NCBI GenBank assembly: GCA_001769385.1 | Contig: MEPB01000008.1 | Coordinates: 1 to 63,848, forward strand | DNA from: Bacteroidetes bacterium RIFCSPLOWO2_12_FULL_35_15 | Lineage (GTDB): Bacteria; Bacteroidota; Bacteroidia; 2-12-FULL-35-15 | Length of the DNA stretch: 63,848 bases | Direction: 5' to 3' | Shown here: piece after piece, positions 1,469-38,304 of the stretch | Position numbering within the stretch: the first letter of the stretch is position 1 | Layout of the letters: every line of letters starts with the position of its first letter | Program-made: the position numbers and the translations under genes | The notes under the pieces: generated by a model | Databases searched by the model: none | What the model was told of the DNA's origin: nothing | Seen by the model: only the letters and a program-made list of their open reading frames with translations

Positions 1469-1498
1469 TTGTAGAATAAAAAAAACGTATTACCTTTG
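1469..1498 (+). promoter_or_regulatory. Bacteroidota-type promoter of the his operon
   Basis: TTG at 1469-1471 and TACCTTTG at 1491-1498 are separated by 19 bases. This fits the Bacteroidota primary sigma factor consensus (-33 TTTG, -7 TAnnTTTG). The predicted transcript starts near 1505, a few bases before the leader peptide ORF at 1519. Confidence 0.75.
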
Positions 1499-1518
1499 TG
1501 CAGAAACAAATCGAAAAA

Positions 1519-1581
1519 ATGGATTTAAAGCAATTACATCATCATCATTTCAATACTGACTTTCAGGCGAGAAGGAAATGA
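1519..1581 (+). CDS. his operon leader peptide (HisL-like), 20 aa
   Basis: A 20-codon ORF starts with ATG just downstream of the promoter and contains four consecutive CAT histidine codons at 1537-1548 (LHHHHF). It ends with TGA at 1579-1581. Histidine runs in a short ORF ahead of hisG are the hallmark of ribosome-mediated attenuation: scarcity of charged tRNA-His stalls the ribosome on the His codons. The stalled ribosome would leave 1562-1569 free to pair with the 5' arm of the downstream terminator. The peptide itself probably has no function. Confidence 0.85.
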   Translation: MDLKQLHHHHFNTDFQARRK

Positions 1582-1638
1582 TATGTGTAAAAACTAAAAT
1601 ATTTCAAAACCCGTCTGAGTAAAACAGACGGGTTTTTT
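1562..1638 (+). terminator. his attenuator: antiterminator/terminator pair
   Basis: The terminator stem is CCCGTCTG (1610-1617) with CAGACGGG (1625-1632), loop of seven, followed by six T (1633-1638); four A before and T after can extend it. The competing antiterminator is TTCAGGCG (1562-1569), inside the leader ORF, pairing with CGTCTGAG (1612-1619) through eight pairs including G-U wobbles. A ribosome stalled at His codons 1537-1548 leaves 1562-1569 free (read-through); one that reaches the stop codon masks it (termination). Confidence 0.8.
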
Positions 1639-1682
1639 GTTTCATCATCCCACAGTTTACTCAGACTCAAAAAACAAAAACA

Positions 1683-2540
1683 ATGAGTAAACTAAAAATT
1701 GCGATTCAAAAAAGCGGAAGATTAAGTGAAAAGTCTTTGGAACTCCTAAAAAATTGTGGAATTAAACTCTCTAATGACGACCGTAAACTAAAAACGGAAG
1801 CTCAAAATTTCCCAATAGAAGTATTATTTTTGCGTGATGATGATATTCCACAATATGTAGAACAAGGTGTTGCCGATATTGGAATATTAGGTGAGAACGA
1901 AGTATGGGAAAAAGAGAAAAATGTGCAAATGGTAGAAAAGTTGGGTTTCGCAAGCTGTAAACTTTCTTTAGCTATTCCAAAGGATGAAGACTATCCGGGT
2001 TTATTATACTTCAATAATAAAAAGGTAGCGACCAGCTATCCCAAGATCCTGAAAAAATATTTTAATGAAAAAAATATCAAGGCCGAAATAGAAGAGATTG
2101 GAGGAAGCGTTGAAATTGCTCCAGGTATTGGTTTGGCAAATGCCATTTTTGATATTGTAAGCACAGGTAGTACACTTTTAATGAATGGGTTAAAAGAAGT
2201 ACATGTAGTAACAAAAAGTACTGCGGTTTTAATTGCAAATAAAAATTTAAACCAAGAAAATGGACAGATTTTAGAAAAACTTTTATTCCGGATAAAAGCT
2301 GTCAGAACGGCTAGTGAGAACAAATATATTTTACTAAATGCTCCAGCCGGTGCCATTCCACAAATTTCATCCATTTTGCCAGGGATGAAGGCTCCAACTG
2401 TTTTGCCTCTGGCAGCAGAAGGGTGGGTAAGTATTCACTCAGTTGTAAAAGAAGATGAGTTTTGGGAAGTAATTGATCAGCTCAAAACTGTTGGAGCACA
2501 AGGGATTTTAGTCGTGCCAATAGAAAAAATGGTTTTATAA
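1683..2540 (+). CDS. hisG: ATP phosphoribosyltransferase (HisG, long form)
   Basis: Catalyses the first step of histidine synthesis, ATP + PRPP to phosphoribosyl-ATP, in the cytoplasm. At 285 aa it is the long HisG form, with two periplasmic-binding-protein-like catalytic lobes and a C-terminal regulatory (ferredoxin-like) domain that in this family mediates histidine feedback inhibition; no HisZ partner is needed. The PRPP-binding loop is visible as DIVSTGST from residue 157. The C-terminus (VSIHSVVKEDEFWEVI) fits the regulatory domain. The ATG lies 45 bases past the attenuator terminator, in a stretch that can pair with the leader (see findings). First gene of a tightly packed eight-gene operon. 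Confidence 0.97.
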   Translation: MSKLKIAIQKSGRLSEKSLELLKNCGIKLSNDDRKLKTEAQNFPIEVLFLRDDDIPQYVEQGVADIGILGENEVWEKEKNVQMVEKLGFASCKLSLAIPKDEDYPGLLYFNNKKVATSYPKILKKYFNEKNIKAEIEEIGGSVEIAPGIGLANAIFDIVSTGSTLLMNGLKEVHVVTKSTAVLIANKNLNQENGQILEKLLFRIKAVRTASENKYILLNAPAGAIPQISSILPGMKAPTVLPLAAEGWVSIHSVVKEDEFWEVIDQLKTVGAQGILVVPIEKMVL

Positions 2541-2566
2541 ATTAATTTGTAAAGGAAAGATTCAAA

Positions 2567-3847
2567 ATGAAAACAATAATATATCCAAATAGAAAGGACT
2601 GGCTAAAACTAACACAACGGCCAACCTTTGAAAAAAAAGAACTGAATGAATTAGTTCTAAAAATTTTCAATGCAATAAAAAAGGATGGTGATAAAGGAGT
2701 AAAAAAATACAGCTCTCTTTTCGATAAGATAGATTTAAAATCTTTAAAAGTGAATGAAAAAATTATTTCCGATGCATCAAAAGAGGTTTCAAAAGAATTG
2801 AAATCGGCCATTCAAGAGGCGAAACGGAATATTGAAAAGTTTCATGCTTCACAAAAAGAATTATCAAAAGTAATTGAAACTACTAGTGGAGTATATTGTT
2901 GGCGTGAAACTAGAGGGATTGAAAAAGTTGGGATTTATATTCCGGCAGGAACGGCACCTTTGTTTTCAACCGTATTGATGTTGGGTATTCCAGCAAAATT
3001 AGCACGTTGTAAAGAAATTATTTTATGTACGCCTCCAAACAAAAAAGGCGAAATTAACCCTGTAATACTTTATGCAGCAAGTTTGGTAGGAATAACTTCT
3101 ATTTTTTTTGTTGGTGGTATTCAAGCTATTGCAGCCATGACGCTGGGTACAAAAAGTATTCCTAAAGTGGATAAGATCTTTGGACCTGGTAATCAATATG
3201 TGACTGCAGCAAAACTGAGGGCTCAAAATTTAGGTGCTGCTATTGATATGCCGGCAGGACCAAGTGAAATATTAATAATTGCAGATAAAACGTGTAAGCC
3301 ATCTTTTGTGGCAGCTGATTTACTTTCGCAGGCGGAACATGGGGAAGACAGCCAGGTAATCTTATTATCTGATAATGAAAAGGTGCTTGAGGAGATTTTA
3401 TTAGAATTGAAACAACAACTAAAAGCATTGCCACGAAAAACCATTACAGAAAAGACCTTGAAAAATAGTAAAGCAATTGTTTTGAAGAACATAAATGAAT
3501 GTATTGAATTTAGCAATGAATATGCTCCTGAACATTTAATTCTGGCAATTGATAAAGCAAATAAAGTTATTCCAAAGATCATTAATGCAGGTTCAGTTTT
3601 CTTAGGAAACTACAGTTGTGAAAGTGCCGGTGATTATGCAAGTGGAACAAACCACACACTCCCAACAAATGGCTATGCTAGAGCATATAGCGGTGTTTCT
3701 TTGGATAGTTTCGTAAAGAAAATTACCTTTCAGGAATTGACAATAGAGGGAATAAAAAATATAGGACCGACTATTGAATTGATGGCAGAAGCGGAGCATT
3801 TGTTTGCTCACAAAAATGCAGTTTCTATTCGACTAAAAAATTTGTAA
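2567..3847 (+). CDS. hisD: Histidinol dehydrogenase
   Basis: Performs the last two steps of the pathway, oxidising L-histidinol to histidinal and then to histidine with 2 NAD+, using zinc. Length (426 aa) is normal. Family motifs are present: FGPGNQYVTAAK, AGPSEILIIAD, the EHGEDSQ segment, the catalytic Glu-His pair in YAPEHLIL, and the zinc-site region SAGDYASGTNHTLPT. It begins 26 bases after hisG and ends one base before the hisC start codon, consistent with one transcript. Confidence 0.97.
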   Translation: MKTIIYPNRKDWLKLTQRPTFEKKELNELVLKIFNAIKKDGDKGVKKYSSLFDKIDLKSLKVNEKIISDASKEVSKELKSAIQEAKRNIEKFHASQKELSKVIETTSGVYCWRETRGIEKVGIYIPAGTAPLFSTVLMLGIPAKLARCKEIILCTPPNKKGEINPVILYAASLVGITSIFFVGGIQAIAAMTLGTKSIPKVDKIFGPGNQYVTAAKLRAQNLGAAIDMPAGPSEILIIADKTCKPSFVAADLLSQAEHGEDSQVILLSDNEKVLEEILLELKQQLKALPRKTITEKTLKNSKAIVLKNINECIEFSNEYAPEHLILAIDKANKVIPKIINAGSVFLGNYSCESAGDYASGTNHTLPTNGYARAYSGVSLDSFVKKITFQELTIEGIKNIGPTIELMAEAEHLFAHKNAVSIRLKNL

Positions 3848-3848
3848 A

Positions 3849-4868
3849 ATGTTTGAGTTAGAAAATATAGTACGTAAAAATATACTTTGTCTCAAGCCTT
3901 ATTCAAGCGCAAGAGATGAGTTCTCCGGAAAAGATGGCGTGTTCTTAGATGCGAATGAAAATCCATTTGGCATATTTAATCGTTATCCAGATCCTTATCA
4001 AAAGGAACTAAAGAAAAAGTTAAGTGAATTGAAATCAATTGCCCCTGAAAACATATTTGTTGGAAACGGCAGTGATGAAGTGATTGATCTTGCCTTTCGG
4101 ATATTTTGTAATCCTGGTAAAGATAAGGCACTTACATTTTCACCAACTTATGGAATGTATGATGTTTCAGCTGAGATCAATGAGGTCGAGTTGATAAAAA
4201 TTCCATTAAACGAATCTTTTCAAATTGATCTGAAGGGGGTGAAGAAATACTTGAACGATAAAAAATTAAAACTAATTTTCATTTGCTCACCTAATAACCC
4301 AACTGGAAATATCCTGATCAATATTGAATGGGTTTTGCAACGATTCAAAGGAATCGTAATTGTTGATGAAGCCTATATTGATTTTAGCAATACAGAATCT
4401 TTTATTTCAAAAATTGAAACCAATCCTAATTTAATTGTTTCACAAACATTTAGCAAAGCATGGGGGCTAGCTGCTGCAAGAGTAGGTACAGCATACTCAA
4501 CCAGTAAAATTATCTCTTTGTTCAGCAAAGTGAAAGCTCCCTATAATGTAAGTGAGCTCAATCAAAAAGCTGCTTTACAAGTATTGAACAACACTAAAGA
4601 ATTTGAAAAAAGAAAATTCATTATTCTGGAGCAAAAAGATTGGTTAGAAAAAGAGTTAAATCTAGTGCCGATTGTAAAAAAAGTTTATCCTTCGGATGCG
4701 AATTTTATGTTAATTGAAACGACTAATGCTAACAAGATCTATACTGCATTGGTAGCTCAAAAAGTAATTACCAGAAACAGAAATAGTTTAGTGAAGAACT
4801 GTATTCGAATCACTGTAGGAAGACCGGACGAAAATCAAAAACTCATTAGTGCATTAAACAATTTATAA
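3849..4868 (+). CDS. hisC: Histidinol-phosphate aminotransferase
   Basis: PLP-dependent class I/II aminotransferase converting imidazole acetol-phosphate and glutamate to L-histidinol phosphate and 2-oxoglutarate. The PLP lysine is K203 in the [11 protein letters not shown] motif; the upstream SPNNPTGN and VDEAYIDF motifs (cofactor ring and pyridine N contacts) are clear. 339 aa, usual size. It starts one base after hisD and hisB follows one base later, so translation is probably coupled. HisC can also act on aromatic amino acid precursors in some species; that cannot be judged here. Confidence 0.96.
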
Positions 4869-4869
4869 C

Positions 4870-5961
4870 ATGAAAAAAATATTATTTATTGACAGAGATG
4901 GTACTATGGTGATTGAACCACAAATCGATCTTCAGTTAAATAGTTTGGAGAAACTGGAATATTATCCGGGTGTTTTCCAAAATCTTTCGCTCATTGCTAA
5001 AGAATTGGATTATAAACTGGTTATGGTAACAAACCAAGATGGGCTTGGTACGACTTCTTTTCCGGAAGATACATTTTGGCCCGTACAAAAAAAAATTATT
5101 CAGGCATTTAAAAATGAAGGTGTTGAGTTTTTGGAAGTGCTGATCGACAAATCGTTCCCTCACGAGAATTTACCAACACGTAAACCTGGAACGGCCATGC
5201 TTACTCATTATATGAATGGTGATTATGATTTAAGTAATTCCTTTGTCATTGGAGATAGATTAACGGATGTACAATTAGCAAAGAACCTTGGATGTAAAGC
5301 AATTTATCTTAGTAAGGAAAAATGTGAGGATGTCGTTTTATCAACCCTCAATTGGGCAGATATTTATCAAAAACTGAAATCAGAACCGCGCAAGTTTAAA
5401 GTGGAACGAATAACATTGGAAACAAAAATTGAAGTAGAAATTAATTTAGATGGTTCAGGGAAAAGTTCTATTTCAACCGGATTAGGTTTTTTTAATCACA
5501 TGTTGGAACAGGTCGCCAAGCATGGAAATTTAGATTTAGTCATTAATGTGAAAGGGGATCTTCACATTGACGAACACCACACCATTGAAGATGTGGCCAT
5601 TACTCTCGGAGAAGCATTTTTAAAGGCATTAGGAAATAAAAAAGGAATTGAACGTTATGGATTTTTATTGCCGATGGATGAATGCCTTGCTCAGGTTGCT
5701 ATTGATTTCGGAGGAAGGCCATGGCTCGTATGGGATGCAGAATTTGGGCGCGAAAAAATAGGAGAGATGCCAACAGAAATGTTCATGCATTTTTTTAAAT
5801 CTTTCAGCGATAATGCAAAATGTAATTTGAACATTAAAGCAGAAGGAGAGAATGAACATCACAAGATCGAAGCAGTATTCAAAGCTTTTGCAAAAACAAT
5901 AAAAATGGCAGTAAGCAAAACAAATAATTACTCAATACCGAGTACTAAAGGAACATTATGA
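4870..5961 (+). CDS. hisB: Bifunctional histidinol-phosphatase / imidazoleglycerol-phosphate dehydratase
   Basis: Fusion of an N-terminal HAD-type phosphatase (residues about 1-165) and a C-terminal IGP dehydratase (about 178-363). The phosphatase nucleophile motif is DRDGT (D8, D10). The dehydratase shows the manganese-binding DEHHTIED motif from residue 234 and a second [14 protein letters not shown] copy near the end. It carries out two non-consecutive steps, as in enterobacterial HisB; the fused form with the E. coli-like gene order is known from Bacteroidota as well. The stop overlaps the hisH start by four bases. Confidence 0.96.
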
Positions 5962-6536
5962 TCGCAATTATAAAATACAATGCAGGCAATGTCAGATCTG
6001 TTGAAAATGCTATACGAAGAATAGGATTCGATTGTGTTGTGACGGATGATAAAGAAAAAATCAATGCAGCAGATAAAGTGATCTTCCCTGGTGTTGGGGA
6101 GGCAAGTTCGGCAATGAGCTATTTAAAAAAATATCAGTTGGATGATTTGATAAGATCATTAAAACAACCCATGTTAGGAATTTGCCTTGGGCAACAATTG
6201 ATGTGTAATCATTCGGAAGAAGGGAATACAGATTGTTTGCGGGTTTTTAATGCAAATGTTAAACTGTTTCCACCAAAAGAATTGGTTCCACACATGGGGT
6301 GGAACAATTTACTTGACTTGAAAGGTGATTTGTTTAAAGGAATAACTAACCTTGATAATGTATATTTTGTACATAGTTATTATGCAGAAATCTGCGAATC
6401 AACAAAGGCTGTCTGCGATTATATTTTACCATTTAGTGCTGCTATGCAAAAAAATAATTTTTATGCTACTCAGTTTCATCCTGAAAAATCAGCAAGTGTG
6501 GGAGAGAAAATTTTAAAAAATTTTTTGGAGCTATGA
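5958..6536 (+). CDS. hisH: Imidazole glycerol phosphate synthase, glutaminase subunit
   Basis: Class I glutamine amidotransferase that supplies ammonia to HisF through an internal tunnel. The nucleophile is C76 in [10 protein letters not shown]; the His-Glu of the triad are in TQFHPEKSA near the C-terminus. The oxyanion-strand motif FPGVGEA is present. 192 aa, normal. Start overlaps hisB by four bases (ATGA-type) and its stop overlaps hisA by four, so it is probably translationally coupled to both. Confidence 0.96.
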
Positions 6537-7246
6537 GAATAATTCCAGCAATTGATATTATCAATGGAAAGTGTGTACGATTATCTCAGGGAGATTATAT
6601 TACGCAAAAAATATATAATGAAAATCCTTTGGAAGTAGCGAAGGAATGTGAAGCAAATGGAATTCGTTTTCTGCATTTAGTGGACCTTGATGGTGCAAGA
6701 TCAAAACGAATTGTTAATTACAAAGTCTTGAATGAGATCACATCCAAAACAAATTTAAAAGTTGATTTTGGTGGTGGATTAAAAAGTAATGAAGATATTA
6801 AAATTGCTTTTGATAATGGGGCTTCACAAATAACAGGTGGAAGTATTGCTGTTGCTGATCCATCACTTTTTATGGAATGGTTGGCAATTTATGGTACAGA
6901 AAAAATAATTTTAGGAGCAGATTGTAACAATAGAAAAATTGCCACACAAGGTTGGTTGAATAGTTCTGAATTGGATGTGATTGAATTCATAAAAGAGTAT
7001 GAACAAAAAGGGATTCACTATGTAATTAGTACCGATATTAGTAAAGACGGAATGTTGCAGGGCACCTCTAATGAATTATATGTGGAGATATTAAACAAAA
7101 CAAAAATAAAACTAATTGCAAGTGGCGGAGTTTCTTCAATTACTGATCTCAAACTATTAAAAGAAATTGGTTGTGAAGGAGCAATTGTTGGGAAAGCGAT
7201 TTATGAGAAAAAAATTACTTTAAAAGAATTAAGCAAACTATGTTGA
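6533..7246 (+). CDS. hisA: ProFAR isomerase (HisA)
   Basis: (beta/alpha)8-barrel enzyme isomerising ProFAR to PRFAR. Catalytic Asp is in the first strand ([16 protein letters not shown]8), with phosphate-binding motifs VDFGGGLKS in the first half and LIASGGVSS in the second half, the two-fold repeat typical of HisA/His[10 protein letters not shown] carries the second catalytic region. 237 aa. Overlaps hisH by four bases and hisF by seven. Confidence 0.95.
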
Positions 7247-7992
7247 AGAAAAGAATCATTCCTTGTTTAGATATTAAAAACGGACGCACCGTAAAAGGTG
7301 TCAATTTTGTTGATATACGTGATGCGGGGGATCCGATCGAGTTGGCAAAAAAATATGTGGAGGAGGGCGCTGATGAATTGGTTTTTTTAGACATCACAGC
7401 TACTATTGAAAAAAGGAAAACACTTGCTGAATTGGTAGAAAAAATTGCTAGAGAGATCAACATCCCTTTTACCGTTGGAGGGGGAATAAATTCTATTAAA
7501 GATGTATCTATAATAATAAAAGCAGGTGCTGATAAAGTTAGTATCAATTCTTCAGCGGTTAAGCGTCCCGAATTAATTTCGGAAATCGCAATGCAGTTTG
7601 GCAGTCAGTGTGTGGTAGTGGCAATTGATACAAAATTTAAAAACAACGAATGGTTAGTTTATAGGAATGGTGGAAAAATTCCAACGACTTTTAAAACTCT
7701 TGATTGGGCAATTAAAGCGGAAAAATTGGGTGCTGGAGAAATATTATTGACTTCCATGAACAATGATGGAACAAAAAATGGTTTTGCTGTAGATATTACA
7801 AACACTATAAGTCAAGCAGTCAATATTCCTGTGATTGCTTCGGGTGGAGCAGGAGCGAAGGAACATTTCAAAGAGATATTTGAAAAAGCAAAAGCGAGTG
7901 GCGCGTTGGCTGCGAGTATATTTCATTTTGGTGAAATTCCCATCCCTGAATTAAAAAAATATTTAAAAACTCAAAATATTCCCATACGATGA
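7240..7992 (+). CDS. hisF: Imidazole glycerol phosphate synthase, cyclase subunit
   Basis: Barrel subunit that uses ammonia from HisH to convert PRFAR to IGP and AICAR. The general acid/base pair D11 ([12 protein letters not shown]) and D130 (VVVAIDTK) are both present, as are the two phosphate-binding loops (FTVGGGINS and VIASGGAG). 250 aa. The start overlaps the end of hisA, and the end overlaps hisIE by four bases. Confidence 0.96.
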
Positions 7993-8576
7993 ATATAGAT
8001 TTTAATAAAACGAACGGACTTGTTCCTGTAATTATACAAAATTACCTGAACCAACAAGTGCTTATGTTGGGCTATATGAACGAAGAAGCATTTCTTAAAA
8101 CAAAAAATGAAGGCAAGATTATTTTTTTTAGTAGAAGTAAAAATAGGTTGTGGATGAAAGGAGAGTCGTCCGGTAATTTTTTATTTGTAAAAGGGATTCA
8201 GATTGATTGTGACAACGATACTATCCTTATACAAGCTGACCCAGTCGGCCCAGCATGTCACACAGGTTCTAACTCCTGTTTCAGAGAAGAAACCAGTAAA
8301 GGTTTTTTATATGAATTGGAACAAACCATTTCGCAACGGATTGAAGAGGATGACGAAAATTCGTACACGAATAAACTTTATAAACGTGGCATCAATAAAG
8401 TAGCTCAAAAAGTGGGCGAAGAAGCTGTGGAACTTGTTATTGAAGCAAAAGACAATAATAAAGAACTTTTCAAAAACGAAGCAGCAGATTTGTTATATCA
8501 CTTTTTAATTTTACTAAAAGCTAAAAATATAAGATTAGAGGACATCGAACAAGTATTAAAAAAAAGAGAAAAGTAG
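7989..8576 (+). CDS. hisI: Bifunctional phosphoribosyl-AMP cyclohydrolase / phosphoribosyl-ATP pyrophosphatase
   Basis: HisIE fusion for steps 2 and 3 of the pathway. The N-terminal cyclohydrolase (about 1-110) has the [11 protein letters not shown] motif and the metal-binding region [21 protein letters not shown] with conserved Cys and His; the C-terminal pyrophosphohydrolase (about 115-195) has the MazG-like [14 protein letters not shown] helix and [14 protein letters not shown]. Last gene of the operon. I see no clear terminator immediately after it; IS debris starts about 30 bases downstream. Confidence 0.95.
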
Positions 8577-8773: not shown

Positions 8774-9394
8774 ATGGATTTAGAGTGGTTCGCCAAAGTT
8801 TTATTACAAAAAAGAGGTGACAGCAATAAAATTTACAGTCTGTATGAGCCTCATGTAAAATGCTACACCAAAGGAAAGGAGCATAAGAAATTTGAATTTG
8901 GAGGTAAAGTGTTAATACTTATTACACAGAAAACAGGAGTAATTGTAGGAGCATTAAACTTTAATGAAACATTACACGATTCGAAAACATTACCTGATGC
9001 ATTGCAACAATATGAACGACTTACCGGCAAACAGGCGAAAAATATATTTTTTGACAGAGGTTACAGAGGACCGAAAACAATAAACCAAACCAATTTACAT
9101 ACGCCTAAACCAAATCCAAACATAACAAAAGCAAAACGAAGAAAACACAAACGAAGAGCAGCAATTGAGCCAACAATAGGACATCTAAAGCACGACTACA
9201 GAATGATACGCAACTATCTCAAAGGAGCCATTGGTGATGAAATGAATGTGATGTTATCGGCTGCTGCAATGAACTTTAAACGGATAATGAATCTCTGGAA
9301 ACAGGGACTTAAATTTTTTATTGAAAATTTATGCTTGTTATTACTTGGCTACTACTGCAATTTATTTCCTCAAAAATTAAAGTCGACTTTTTGA
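8774..9394 (+). pseudogene. IS5-family transposase, 5'-truncated
   Basis: The 206-aa ORF matches the middle and C-terminal part of IS5-type DDE transposases: KIYSLYEPHVKCYTKGK, the second catalytic Asp in FFDRGYRG and the catalytic Glu in AAIEPTIGHLKHDYRM, then NYLKGAIGDEMNVML. The N-terminal third, including DNA binding and the first catalytic Asp region, is absent, so it should be inactive. Its C-terminus reads through the right copy of the 55-bp repeat. TATGAGGCTTT-like inverted ends at 8609-8619 and 9411-9421 bracket the remnant. Confidence 0.75.
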
Positions 9395-9726: not shown

Positions 9727-10470
9727 ATGACGACAAATAAATTAACAGAAGGAGCGGAAACATTGAATAAAAATGTTAATGATGCAATGAAATGGTTTCA
9801 GGATACCACTTCAACAATTATGATGGTCCAAAGCAAACAATTAGAGTACGCAAATGAGATGTATTCCAAAATGATGAACAACTATCTTGGCGAAATCAAA
9901 AAGGATAATTTTAATGATTCATTTGATTTGTCGAAAAAGATGATGGATCTGATGCAAAAAAACATAGAAAGTTTTATTAAAACTTCCGGTGATGCAATGA
10001 AAACAATTATGGAATCCGGCAACTATGGCGAAGATCCTACTCCTTATTCAAAGGAAATGTTGAACAAAATGACCAAAAATTTCAATGAGCAAGTGGACAT
10101 GATTACAAATGTTAATAAAAATACTTTTGACACCTTATCTAAACAATTTAATATATCAAAAACATCATTTAGTCCAACATTTGAAAAATCAAAGAAAGAA
10201 TTCGAAGCAAATTTTAAATTGTCGAAAGAAACAATTCAAAAAATTGTTGATTCTTATGCCAAGCTTAAAACTCCAACATTAGAAGCAAACAAAAAGGTAG
10301 TAGATGATTTGAATAAAAATATGAATTCAATGGCACAGAATAATTTTAAATTATGGTCTGAATTATTAAACAAGTATGACGGATCTGGATCAAAAAGTGA
10401 TAGCGGGCTTTTAAAAAAGCAGCCACACCATAGCGGTAATGGTAAAGTGAAAACATCAGAAATGAAATAA
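9727..10470 (+). CDS. Phasin-like PHB granule-associated protein
   Basis: A 247-aa protein made almost wholly of amphipathic helices rich in Lys, Met, Asn and Phe, without signal peptide or membrane segments, ending in a disordered Ser/Gly/Lys tail. Repeated patterns such as NKKVVDDLNKNMNSMAQNNFKLW resemble phasin-family proteins that coat polyhydroxyalkanoate granules. The strongest support is the context: first of phasin-phasin-phaC-phaB on one strand, and similarity in pattern to the paralogue at 22403-23158. The start ATG follows a run of A. Assignment to the phasin family is by composition and neighbours, not by a catalytic motif. Confidence 0.75.
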   Translation: MTTNKLTEGAETLNKNVNDAMKWFQDTTSTIMMVQSKQLEYANEMYSKMMNNYLGEIKKDNFNDSFDLSKKMMDLMQKNIESFIKTSGDAMKTIMESGNYGEDPTPYSKEMLNKMTKNFNEQVDMITNVNKNTFDTLSKQFNISKTSFSPTFEKSKKEFEANFKLSKETIQKIVDSYAKLKTPTLEANKKVVDDLNKNMNSMAQNNFKLWSELLNKYDGSGSKSDSGLLKKQPHHSGNGKVKTSEMK

Positions 10471-10505
10471 ATAAAATAATAATAACTATAAAAAATCAAA
10501 ACAAG

Positions 10506-11099
10506 ATGAAAAGTACATTAAATGAAAAGGCTGAAAAAATCAAAAGCAGTATTAAAGGAACAGCAGAAAAGTCAAAAGAAACAATAAGAGAGTTTATTGA
10601 TTCTAATACAAAAAATATTGGTGCTGCAATGGATTCAAATAAAAAAATATTTGATTCGATAAAAGAAAAACTGGATCAGCAAGAAATGGAAGATACAGTA
10701 ACATCTACTATTAAAAACACTTTTGGGAAATCAGTAGAACTTGCTGAAGATGCACTTGACAGCATCATAAATTCATATACAAGACAAATGGAATTGAATG
10801 TTGATTTCAATACCAAATTAGTAGATGCGATCAAAGAATCAAATAGTGAAAACCCTGAAAAAGTATTGACATTGATTCATGATAATTTTGAAGCAACTCG
10901 TCAATTAACTATTAACAATACAAAAGAGATTCTCGATTTTTACAATAAGCATACTAATCTTGCTTTAAATTTCAATGAAAAATTCGGTGAAAACATTAAG
11001 TCGCAATTGGATTCTATGTTTGCTATACAGAATAAAGGTTTAAATAAATTCACAGACTGGGCATCCGATTGGTGGAAACAACAAAACGATAAAAAGTAA
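10506..11099 (+). CDS. Phasin-like protein, second type
   Basis: A 197-aa all-helical protein with repeated KSSIKGTAEKSKETI and DSNKKIFDSIKEKLDQQ segments and a Trp-rich C-terminus (GLNKFTDWASDWWKQQ). Probably granule-associated or an adaptor of PhaC, because it lies 35 bases after the first phasin and 98 bases before phaC, with a terminator between. A near-identical C-terminal motif survives as a relic at 28423-28539 (GLDKFTNWASEWWKQ), so this is a recognisable subfamily with at least two members in this genome. Exact role unknown. Confidence 0.65.
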   Translation: MKSTLNEKAEKIKSSIKGTAEKSKETIREFIDSNTKNIGAAMDSNKKIFDSIKEKLDQQEMEDTVTSTIKNTFGKSVELAEDALDSIINSYTRQMELNVDFNTKLVDAIKESNSENPEKVLTLIHDNFEATRQLTINNTKEILDFYNKHTNLALNFNEKFGENIKSQLDSMFAIQNKGLNKFTDWASDWWKQQNDKK

Positions 11100-11118
11100 T
11101 AATTATCTCATATTTAGG

Positions 11119-11166
11119 ACATTGTGAATTAAGTAATCAACGTACTTGATTTACAATGTTTTTTTC
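11119..11166 (+). terminator. Intrinsic terminator between phasin and phaC
   Basis: Imperfect hairpin ACATTGTGAATTAAGTA / TACTTGATTTACAATGT followed by a T-run. It probably lets the abundant phasins be expressed above phaC, with partial read-through. Confidence 0.65.
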
Positions 11167-11197
11167 TTAATAATACAACGGTTAAACAAAAAGCCTT

Positions 11198-13006
11198 ATG
11201 GAAAAAATGAATCAAATAAATTTTCAGGAATTAACAGAAAGCATCACAAAAGCAAGTCAGAAAATCATAAAAAATTATCTCGAAAATAGTACCGGATACG
11301 CCCATGACAACAGGGATATTACAAGCACCTTCAATTCTTTCGGAAGTAAGCTGGTTGCGGATTCGAAAGAAATGAAAAAAGTTCAGGATGTTTATGACAT
11401 TTTTATACAAAGTCAACAGGAATTATGGAAACGAATAACAGAGCGACAATTTGATAAAACCAAAGAATATAAACCGTTAATTTCTCCTGATAAAAACGAT
11501 AAACGATTTCGTGCACCAGAATGGGATGAAGCACCTTACTATTTTGATTTTGTCAAACAGAGCTATCTTTTAGTTTCAAAAATGATGAAAGATATAATTG
11601 AGAATGCAGGAATAGATGAATCTGAAAAGAAAAAATTGAATTTTTATTCCCAACAATATATTGATGCCTTTTCTCCTTCCAATTATATTGCAACTAATCC
11701 GGAAGCAATAAAATTAGCTCAGGAAACTAAAGGACAAAGTTTAATTGATGGATTTAAAAATCTATTGGCAGACATTGAAAAGGGTGGTATTACTCAAACT
11801 GATATGACAGCCTTTGAAGTAGGTGAGAACATTGCTGTTACTCCGGGAGCAGTTATATATGAAAATGAATTAATTCAACTTATTCAATATTCTCCTGCTA
11901 CAAAAAATGTATGTGAAACACCTTTAGTTATTATTCCACCTTGGATTAATAAATTTTATATACTTGATTTGCGTCCAGAAAATTCTCTTACGAAATTTAT
12001 CGTGGATCAGGGAGTAACAACTTTTATCATTTCATGGAAAAACCCAACTTCCAAAATGGGACATATTGCTTTTGAGGATTATGTGGAAATGGGATGTTTA
12101 AAAGCGATTGAAGTTGCCCAATCTATTACAAAATCAAAAAAAGTAAATACATTAGGATATTGTCTTGGCGGAACATTGTTAGGTATTACTCTTTCAATCC
12201 TTGCCAAACAAAAAACCAAACAGGAAAATCCTGTTAATTCCGCAACTTTCTTAGCTACTATGATTGACTTTTCGGATGTTGGACCAATGGGAGATGTAAT
12301 TGACAATGCATTAGTAAAAAAACTGGAGAGAGGCGAATTGACTGAAAAAGGGGTTATGTCAGGACATGATATGGAAAAAGCTTTTAATCTTATCAGGGCG
12401 AATGACTTAGTTTGGAATTTTGTTGTCAATAATTATTTGAAAGGAAAAACGCCTACTCCATTTGATTTACTTTTTTGGACAAATGACAATACAAATCTTC
12501 CTGCCAGTATGTATCTTTTCTATTTACGTTACATGGTTCTGGAAAACAAACTAAGCAGAAAGAACGCATTACGGATTTGCAAAACACCTATTGATATTGG
12601 AAAAATAGAAGTTCCGGTTTATGTTATTGGACTTCAGGAAGATCATATTTCTCCTGCTCATACTACATTCACCATCACAGAATTGGTTAGCGGACCTGTC
12701 GAATTTATACTTGGGGGATCAGGCCATGTAATGGGTGCAGCCAATCCTCCTGCCAAAAAGAAATATGGTTATTACCTAAATGGTACTTTACATGAAGGAT
12801 TTGAAAAATGGACAGAAAGCGCTGATTTTTTTGAAGGAAGCTGGTGGACTCCATGGATAAAACGTATCATTGAAAAATCAGGTAAACAAATTCCTGCTAT
12901 CAAAAATTTAGGTAATACTAAATATAAAAAGATAGAACCTGCTCCAGGCAGATATGTAAAAGAAAAATGTGAGCATTACTCCACAAATAATTCTAATTCA
13001 CATTAA
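11198..13006 (+). CDS. phaC: Polyhydroxyalkanoate synthase, class I PhaC-like
   Basis: Polymerises (R)-3-hydroxyacyl-CoA (mostly 3-hydroxybutyryl-CoA) into PHB at the granule surface. 602 aa, the class I size. Alpha/beta-hydrolase core with the lipase-like box GYCLGG containing the nucleophile C322, acid D482 in LQEDHISP and base H510 in GSGHVMGAANPP; spacing matches class I synthases. The N-terminal 200 residues, poorly conserved in the family, are helical. The C-terminus holds WTESADFFEGSWWTPW, also typical. A decayed IS200-type element separates it from phaB. Confidence 0.95.
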   Translation: MEKMNQINFQELTESITKASQKIIKNYLENSTGYAHDNRDITSTFNSFGSKLVADSKEMKKVQDVYDIFIQSQQELWKRITERQFDKTKEYKPLISPDKNDKRFRAPEWDEAPYYFDFVKQSYLLVSKMMKDIIENAGIDESEKKKLNFYSQQYIDAFSPSNYIATNPEAIKLAQETKGQSLIDGFKNLLADIEKGGITQTDMTAFEVGENIAVTPGAVIYENELIQLIQYSPATKNVCETPLVIIPPWINKFYILDLRPENSLTKFIVDQGVTTFIISWKNPTSKMGHIAFEDYVEMGCLKAIEVAQSITKSKKVNTLGYCLGGTLLGITLSILAKQKTKQENPVNSATFLATMIDFSDVGPMGDVIDNALVKKLERGELTEKGVMSGHDMEKAFNLIRANDLVWNFVVNNYLKGKTPTPFDLLFWTNDNTNLPASMYLFYLRYMVLENKLSRKNALRICKTPIDIGKIEVPVYVIGLQEDHISPAHTTFTITELVSGPVEFILGGSGHVMGAANPPAKKKYGYYLNGTLHEGFEKWTESADFFEGSWWTPWIKRIIEKSGKQIPAIKNLGNTKYKKIEPAPGRYVKEKCEHYSTNNSNSH

Positions 13007-37754: not shown

Positions 37755-38087
37755 AAAGAAATCTCCCCTCCAATTTCTAAAAGATTTTTCTTGCTACAAA
37801 TGGCGATAAATGAGACTTGTTTTAAGTCCTTTGTTTTTAAGATGTCAAAATGCGGTATATGGCTTGATCGCGAAGCCCCCGACATTGTAACCACAAAAAT
37901 TGTTTTTGGGTACACTGTTTTTGGTTTTTTAAATTAATAATACAATAAACATGTATTGTTCAAATACAATTATTGCAAACCAAAAAATAGAATTAGAAAG
38001 GAAATATAAGGAAGGAGGAAACTCCAAAAAACTCAATATAACCTGACTAAGCTCCATTTCGCGGAAGCATAAAAGTCATCAAATAAA
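37755..38087 (-). other. Leader between cobalamin riboswitch and btuB
   Basis: About 330 bases without a gene. Contains a GC-richer stretch around 37870-37890 (TCGCGAAGCCCCCGAC) that may be the expression platform of the riboswitch; I could not draw a clean terminator. Confidence 0.35.
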
Positions 38088-38270
38088 TTTGGCAGGTTTC
38101 CTGACTTTCCCGACTTCTGATTACCTTCCCATTCTTTTTTAGAACAGTGGTATAAATTTATCAGAAGCGCTTTCTCAACGAATTGAGACGAGATTACAGT
38201 TGCGCGACAGCCCGTGATTTTCACACGGTTTCCTATTATCTCCGATTTGAAATCGGAGCACCTAAATCAT
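38088..38270 (-). promoter_or_regulatory. Cobalamin (AdoCbl) riboswitch
   Basis: On the minus strand the order is AGGTGC..., AATAGGAAACCGTGTGAAAA, TCACGGGCTGTCGCGCAACT, GTAAT, CCACTG, GGGAAGGTAATCAGAAGTCG, GGAAAGTCAGGAAACCTGCC. These are the conserved blocks of class I cobalamin riboswitches (P3 to P6 core, the B12-box GCTGTCGCGCAACTG and the AGTCAGGA-ACCTGCC 3' end). It would shut the btu-cob operon down when AdoCbl is plentiful. Confidence 0.96.
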
Positions 38271-38304
38271 ACATAATTGAACAAAAAAAGAACGAATACT
38301 CGGG

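Follow-up and report, generated by a model that had tools for sequence, protein, structure and literature searches.

The his operon and its leader ORF

The stretch of DNA analyzed here, referred to as the window, comprises 63,848 nucleotides of contig MEPB01000008.1 from Bacteroidetes bacterium RIFCSPLOWO2_12_FULL_35_15. It carries a complete his operon at 1683–8576 on the forward strand (hisG, hisD, hisC, a bifunctional hisB, hisH, hisA, hisF, and hisIE), and all eight genes match the NCBIfam model of the same name above its cut-off. The leader directly precedes hisG, which starts at 1683. A previous sequence-only reading had described this leader as a histidine attenuator; its coordinates were correct to within two bases, and corrections of one or two bases have been made here. 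The promoter that it named, TTG-N19-TACCTTTG, is present on the forward strand at 1469–1498, with TTG at 1469–1471, a spacer of 19 nt, and TACCTTTG at 1491–1498, a box that we take to be of the Bacteroidota TAnnTTTG promoter type. By itself, the promoter pattern is weak evidence because the genome of this organism contains 114 sites with the pattern compared with 60 for the reversed pattern. A TAnnTTTG box was found in the 60 nt before the leader ATG for 86 of 94 leaders (4–10 in shuffled sequences), and since the end of the box mostly lies 16–20 nt before this ATG, the leader ORF begins near the predicted transcript start.

The leader ORF MDLKQLHHHHFNTDFQARRK (1519–1581, forward strand) consists of 20 codons and includes four consecutive CAT codons for His at 1537–1548, as had been claimed. 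With these four His codons it is rich in codons for the amino acid that the operon produces, which is one of the features by which attenuators are recognized. The sequence CAYCAYCAYCAY occurs once in the window compared with 0.12 expected occurrences, yet 11 of 100 shuffles also contained one. For 74 relatives, the available sequence extends 200 nt or more beyond the start of hisG on the upstream side. A short ORF with three or more His in seven codons precedes hisG in 69 of these relatives (four on the reverse strand and 3–7 in shuffles), and one with four or more His in seven codons does so in 56 (none on the reverse strand and 0–1 in shuffles). The leader peptides often end in Gln-Ala-Arg/Ser, with QA followed by R, S, W, G, K, or C in 59 of 96 leaders, apparently because CAGGCGAG is constrained as RNA.

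Terminator and antiterminator

Folding of the leader RNA (1500–1645) yielded a z score of -5.05. An intrinsic terminator hairpin of 12 pairs with a 7-nt loop lies at 1606–1636 on the forward strand (5' arm 1606–1617, loop 1618–1624, and 3' arm 1625–1636, the last referred to as strand 4) and ends in a U tract of six T (1633–1638), the predicted 3' end of the attenuated RNA. The terminator plus six T that had been read before hisG (1606–1638) is therefore present, and it exceeds chance: three terminator-like sites were found in 1200–2000 compared with 0.2 in shuffles, although two of the three are the same hairpin on each strand. In an alignment of 60 sequences, the terminator core has nine pairs and 99.1% of its cells are paired. 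A search with HisG returned 76 named loci, nearly all of them from Bacteroidota metagenome bins or strains, and an intrinsic terminator before the first structural gene was parsed in 66. The terminator was not parsed in L015, L026, L033, L054, L056, L064, L066, L067, L068, and L072; among these, L033 and L056 possess a terminator with a mismatch, and in L015 the leader and terminator lie far upstream.

The antiterminator strand, strand 2 (TTCAGGCG, 1562–1569, forward strand), is located within the last leader codons and pairs with 1612–1619 in eight pairs, two of them G-U. Its target belongs to strand 3 (1612–1623, forward strand), a segment of the 5' arm and loop that is common to three partners, namely strands 2, 4, and 5. 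The competing pairing proposed by the sequence-only reading thus exists, and its support comes from relatives, as the pairing is weak in the window itself (p = 0.035 versus shuffles) and reaches p ≤ 0.05 in just 55 of 96 leaders when tested locus by locus. In 60 aligned leaders, 95.2% of the cells of the 2:3 helix are paired, compared with 27.7%–46.3% for slid versions and 92.7% when letters were dealt anew (0/500). Because most of these pairs vary little, the test across arm types is the stronger one. Over 96 leaders, strand 2 pairs better with its own arm than with a swapped arm (-13.17 versus -10.65 kcal/mol, 0/5000), and the same holds across 11 arm families, grouped by rough patterns (-12.75 for own and -8.90 for swapped arms, 0/20000). 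The leaders of L009 and L023, each the single locus of its arm family, pair slightly better with foreign arms. A compensatory change from CTCAGGCG:CGTCTGAG to CTCAAGCG:CGTTTGAG is seen in L005, L063, L120, L121, and L130, and in L030, L119, L122, and L124 the CGTTTGAG arm is combined with an unchanged strand 2, pairing as G-U. Phylogenetic contrasts between arm and strand 2, with the strand 2 base read by a loose motif, gave five pairs with 2.4 in the same direction and 0.2 in the opposite one, a number that cannot reach significance.

In the window, 13 nt separate the last His codon from strand 2. With the end of the longest His run as the starting point and a motif list for strand 2, this gap has a median of 13 nt (quartiles 13 and 13, range 7–19) in the 81 of 96 leaders that the measure covers. 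A looser measure with a median of 8 nt (quartiles 7 and 13, range 1–151, n = 89) was rejected, as the lower value arose because its pattern mis-hit and its starting point was the final His in the densest stretch. When usual ribosome footprint lengths are assumed, a ribosome at the last His codon would leave strand 2 free, and a ribosome parked at the stop codon would cover at least 75% of strand 2 in 75 of 81 leaders; the geometry in relatives thus agrees with the earlier claim that a stalled ribosome exposes this strand and a finishing one hides it. Taken together, the pairing, the fit to the own arm, and the geometry (the last on assumed footprint lengths) describe an antiterminator that is mutually exclusive with the terminator. 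Alignment of Bacteroidota hisG leaders, the check that had been suggested, revealed conservation of the His run, the spacing, the terminator, and the competing pairing, with some compensatory changes. Alternatively, a constitutive terminator might hold basal expression low, with the His run as a coding accident. Considering that His runs, spacing, and arm fit recur in many lineages, we regard this as extremely unlikely.

The antiterminator strand of L049, L055, L002, and L006 is preceded by the leader stop codon or contains it, and because of this position a parked ribosome would cover the strand from upstream. The minimum free energy fold of the window also contains a possible hairpin between the His codons (1534–1552) and 1575–1590 (1534–1590 overall, forward strand), with a z score of only -1.46. 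A duplex between the His codons and the segment after the antiterminator gave p ≤ 0.05 in 41 of 96 leaders (p = 0.18 in the window), and such a duplex is possible in a subset of leaders. Two further candidates were rejected: a consensus 1:2 hairpin acting in pausing or as a protector, of which RNAalifold found none in 60 aligned leaders, and an inner helix lengthening the antiterminator, with p ≤ 0.05 in 8 of 96.

Distribution among relatives

A covariance model, R1, was built from 60 hisG leaders and favors hisG leaders for this reason. In the class, R1 matched 31 of 295 genomes, which represent 17 of 155 genera. In the order to which the window belongs, it matched 11 of 36 genomes at E ≤ 0.01, five of them strongly and with this exact leader type; hisG itself was matched in 18 of the 36 genomes. 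The same layout with another arm pair, of the GGTAAGC:GCTTACC type, occurs in L103–L110 (same order, hisG 61%–65% identical), and arms of this type in the same layout are also found in L115 (same order, hisG 52% identical over part of the gene). A search of the phylum with a strict pattern matched 3 of 395 genomes, the pattern being too strict.

The sample was defined as follows. Matches in which the pattern gave no hisG start were left out (weak R1 hits L086–L092, L094, L096, and L097; class hits L118, L133, and L142), as were L112–L114, and one class match has no assigned locus. L072 has no gene start, L029 has no leader, and the leaders of L054 and L061 are masked by N. L008 and L128 are identical and were both counted.

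A further strand upstream of hisG

Between the terminator and hisG lies strand 5, GTTTACTCAGAC (1655–1666, forward strand), which is complementary to strand 3 and to the hisG start. With the terminator 5' arm and loop it can form a helix of 11 perfect pairs (1613–1623 with 1656–1666). With the hisG start, referred to as strand 6 (UGAGUAAAC, 1684–1692, forward strand) and consisting of the U and G of the AUG and codons 2–4, it can form 9–10 pairs, by which strand 6 is masked in minimum free energy folds. The leader had been described as a minimal attenuator of two states with a single alternative pairing. This description is not supported, since strand 3 has a third partner at 1655–1666 that is itself able to pair with the hisG start; the duplex of the His codons, which beats shuffles in some leaders but not in that of the window, speaks against it as well. 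To judge from predicted folds, the most likely role of strand 5 would be that of a second, translational lock. The main rival, which we rate as about equally likely and to which we likewise grant somewhat less than an even chance, holds that just 2:3 and 3:4 matter; strand 5 would then be a relic or a strand of an insulating or stabilizing hairpin for read-through mRNA, and it would match the hisG start as a consequence of matching strand 3.

The complement between strands 3 and 5 is kept in relatives. When 42 loci selected for their longer UTR were aligned, 83.5% of the cells of the 3:5 helix proved to be paired, compared with 15%–45% for slid versions, and 32 cells show double-sided changes compared with 9.6 in shuffles (0/500), affecting 6 of the 11 pairs. 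The complement was also tested against dinucleotide shuffles in the 101 loci, the window among them, whose terminator had been parsed, with the room in the UTR counted from 5 nt beyond the terminator stem. It reached p ≤ 0.05 in all 43 loci that have at least 26 nt of UTR and an hisG starting with ATGAG, and p ≤ 0.01 in 41 of these (L024 and L032 are weak), a retention that counts against the single-lock rival. In these 43 loci, strand 5 pairs better with its own strand 3 than with swapped partners (-17.00 versus -12.95, 0/5000), although the swaps ignore relatedness. Contrasts on the HisG tree point the same way and are not significant: four pairs for arm and strand 5 (2.8 in the same direction, 0 opposite), three for loop and strand 5 (2.3 and 0), and five for an ATGAG start and the presence of strand 5 (3.1 and about none).

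Other loci favor the single-lock view. Those with 12–17 nt between the terminator and hisG, including nine ATGAG loci, have no room for strand 5. Its presence and absence alternate among close relatives. The 3:5 complement is also found in 15 of 40 non-ATGAG hisG with at least 20 nt of UTR (L058, L059, L062, and L065 were counted as non-ATGAG because their hisG start was set at the match and not at the ATG), and 5:6 pairing in the non-ATGAG genes with the complement is no better than in shuffles. The persistence of 3:5 in some loci without 5:6 argues against the second lock.

At the DNA level, strand 5 is a perfect inverted repeat of the terminator arm over 11 bases, and this repeat could serve as a repressor operator rather than as part of an RNA switch. 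Inverted repeats are in themselves nothing unusual here, with 28 windowed matches in the window compared with 0–6 per shuffle. Furthermore, the arms co-vary from clade to clade with the loop included, and the distance between them varies, unlike in an operator, which makes this explanation very unlikely.

For the window leader, the predicted fold has the terminator closed and strand 5 paired with the hisG start at 1684–1692. A hairpin that masks the start codon, the feature that marks translational attenuators, is thus predicted for the window and for most of the 43 ATGAG loci. Across the latter, the ensembles contain a mean of 7.6 5:6 pairs and the AUG bases are paired with a mean probability of 0.63; when strand 4 is blocked, strand 5 shifts to strand 3 (8.9 pairs) and the pairing of the AUG falls to 0.29. 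Exceptions occur in both directions, as 3:5 is favored even with strand 4 free in L024, L027, L034, L063, and L071, and 5:6 is kept even with strand 4 blocked in L003, L080, L129, and L130. The 5:6 pairing in the 43 loci is stronger with own than with swapped partners (-9.95 versus -8.44, 0/5000), the swaps again ignoring relatedness.

Positions at which strand 3 differs from the hisG start help to weigh the origin of the match to that start. At 31 of them strand 5 accommodates both by wobble; at 17 it fits strand 3 alone, at 11 hisG alone, and at 7 neither. In this count the window row is mis-anchored, L024 and L032 have no anchor, and L030 is read in part. The loop, strand 5, and codon 3 change jointly in L120, L121, L124, and L129; L130 has a loop that differs from the codon, and there strand 5 agrees with the codon. 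These observations argue against a strand 5 that resembles the hisG start by way of strand 3. The opposite conclusion is favored by the fact that 5:6 beats shuffles at p ≤ 0.05 in just 20 of 43 long-UTR loci of a first mixed set, nearly all of them ATGAG genes, and by the independent contrasts between hisG codon 2 and strand 5, in which two pairs (0 in the same direction and 0.3 opposite), too few to be significant, gave no support for 5:6. Energies in the window also agree with it: 3:4 (-17.9 kcal/mol) is more stable than 3:5 (-12.5 kcal/mol) and than the 2:3 helix alone (-7.1 kcal/mol), and the best fold before strand 4 is -13.0 kcal/mol. Because 3:4 wins at equilibrium, antitermination and the 3:5 state would both need kinetic trapping, and the open state of a second lock must accordingly be kinetic.

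Comparison with known systems

No Rfam family was detected at its gathering score at the leader or in 20 relatives. The His_leader family RF00514 matched over its full length with 31.9 bits compared with a gathering score of 49 bits, the best of the sub-threshold matches in 1400–1800, and similar sub-threshold scores were obtained among 15 relatives (33.0 bits in L027 and 30.2 bits in L001). A T-box or metabolite riboswitch that senses histidine or its tRNA directly would also be compatible with a terminator before an amino acid operon, an arrangement shared with T-boxes. However, besides the lack of an Rfam family at gathering score, in-frame His codons and a 13-nt gap indicate a ribosome, and the T-box is found neither among the gathering-score matches in the window nor among the 16 with E ≤ 5 in 1400–1800; we consider such a sensor extremely unlikely. 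The Bacteroid-trp motif RF01692 is likewise absent from these 16 matches.

The enterobacterial his attenuator (RF00514) resembles the window leader in possessing a leader ORF with His codons, a terminator, a competing antiterminator, and an operon that starts with hisG. The window leader differs in scoring below the gathering threshold, in that no consensus upstream hairpin was found, in the position of its antiterminator strand inside the last leader codons, and in the additional strand 5 with its start-codon pairing. Attenuators of his genes have also been predicted by comparison in Firmicutes (Bacillus cereus group, Eubacteriales, and Erysipelotrichales), with three to five consecutive His codons, a terminator, and an antiterminator as in the window; they belong to another phylum, and a strand after the terminator is not mentioned in the excerpt of the paper that describes them (PMC9413887).

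Within the phylum of the window, Vitreschak et al. reportedly predicted attenuators for Bacteroidetes in 2004. These and Bacteroid-trp reportedly share the general mechanism with the leader described here. The RF01692 motif is listed for Bacteroidetes in an excerpt of PMC2864571, and a transcript map of B. thetaiotaomicron describes, in part of its text, short ORFs in long 5' UTRs that resemble leader peptides (PMC7366714); hisG is not mentioned in the main text of this map. An attenuator is no novelty in kind for Bacteroidota, and we do not claim that the hisG attenuator is unpublished. In excerpts of nine papers (PMC4833913, PMC8305728, PMC7366714, PMC2965389, PMC3896937, PMC2864571, PMC3766115, PMC9413887, and PMC12121999), we found neither a Bacteroidota hisG attenuator nor a leader in which a terminator and a start-codon hairpin share a strand.

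According to excerpts of PMC9413887 and of PMC12121999, the latter on the topAI uORF, translational attenuators sequester the ribosome-binding site, and masking of the next start depends on a ribosome stalled in the leader, as it would in the proposed second lock. In the case excerpted from PMC9413887, the masking hairpin replaces the terminator, whereas both would act in series in the window, with strand 3 shared between them.

Proposed mechanism

The leader of the window very probably attenuates transcription of the his operon in response to histidine, by way of the ribosome. This part of the sequence-only reading is upheld by the conserved His run, spacing, terminator, and pairing, and strand 5 is what its minimal two-state part did not foresee. 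From the anatomy, conservation, and covariation of the leader, we infer the following course of stalling, termination, and antitermination in the cell. When charged His-tRNA is scarce, the ribosome would stall at the four His codons with its front edge just before strand 2 (1562–1569). Strand 2 could then capture strand 3 (1612–1619) before strand 4 is synthesized, so that no terminator forms and RNA polymerase enters hisG. A ribosome that finishes the leader peptide would park on the stop codon and cover strand 2, allowing the terminator 3:4 to form.

It is possible that control continues beyond the terminator. With the terminator closed, strand 5 would be free to mask the hisG start codon of leaked transcripts, which would stay silent; with strand 3 withheld from strand 4, strand 5 would take strand 3 and the hisG start codon would stay open. 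We tentatively propose, at a little below even odds, that many Bacteroidia his leaders may be two attenuators in series that share one strand, with 2:3 forming first and strand 3 then passing to strand 5. If this reading holds, the terminator loop would double as a copy of the beginning of the following gene. Transcription and translation would then be controlled by one leader through a single shared strand that silences leaky read-through. Natural leaders with and without strand 5 exist even in close relatives, making the second lock directly testable.

Bacteroidota mostly start translation without Shine-Dalgarno sequences. Ribosome-mediated attenuation works only if the ribosome closely trails RNA polymerase. 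A His attenuator operating in many lineages of Bacteroidia, with its near-constant spacing of 13 nt and its matching arms, would thus mean that transcription and translation are closely coupled in this phylum.

Other leaders and features of the window

L135–L139 belong to another arm family (leader CAATAGGTG, terminator CCCGCC...) without a significant strand 5, and L135 has a sub-threshold match to Thr_leader (36.4 bits). The Marivirga loci L064, L066, and L067 contain short ORFs with His codons that end in FHHSSF, approximately 220 to 130 nt upstream of hisG, and complementary TTCCTC/GAGGAA pieces with no intrinsic terminator parsed; these leaders are possibly translational attenuators.

A search of the genome of this organism for other amino acid attenuators returned a match of the trpE/pabB type. 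Within the window, an ORF right behind hisIE (8774–9394, forward strand) matches the C-terminal part of an IS5-family transposase model (positions 241–418 of 419) below the cut-off. A little downstream of the his operon, the region 9727–13006 (forward strand) holds two ORFs that look phasin-like by sequence, followed by a class I polyhydroxyalkanoate synthase (11198–13006, forward strand). The sole Rfam match at gathering score in the window is a cobalamin riboswitch at 38074–38280 on the reverse strand (91.8 bits).
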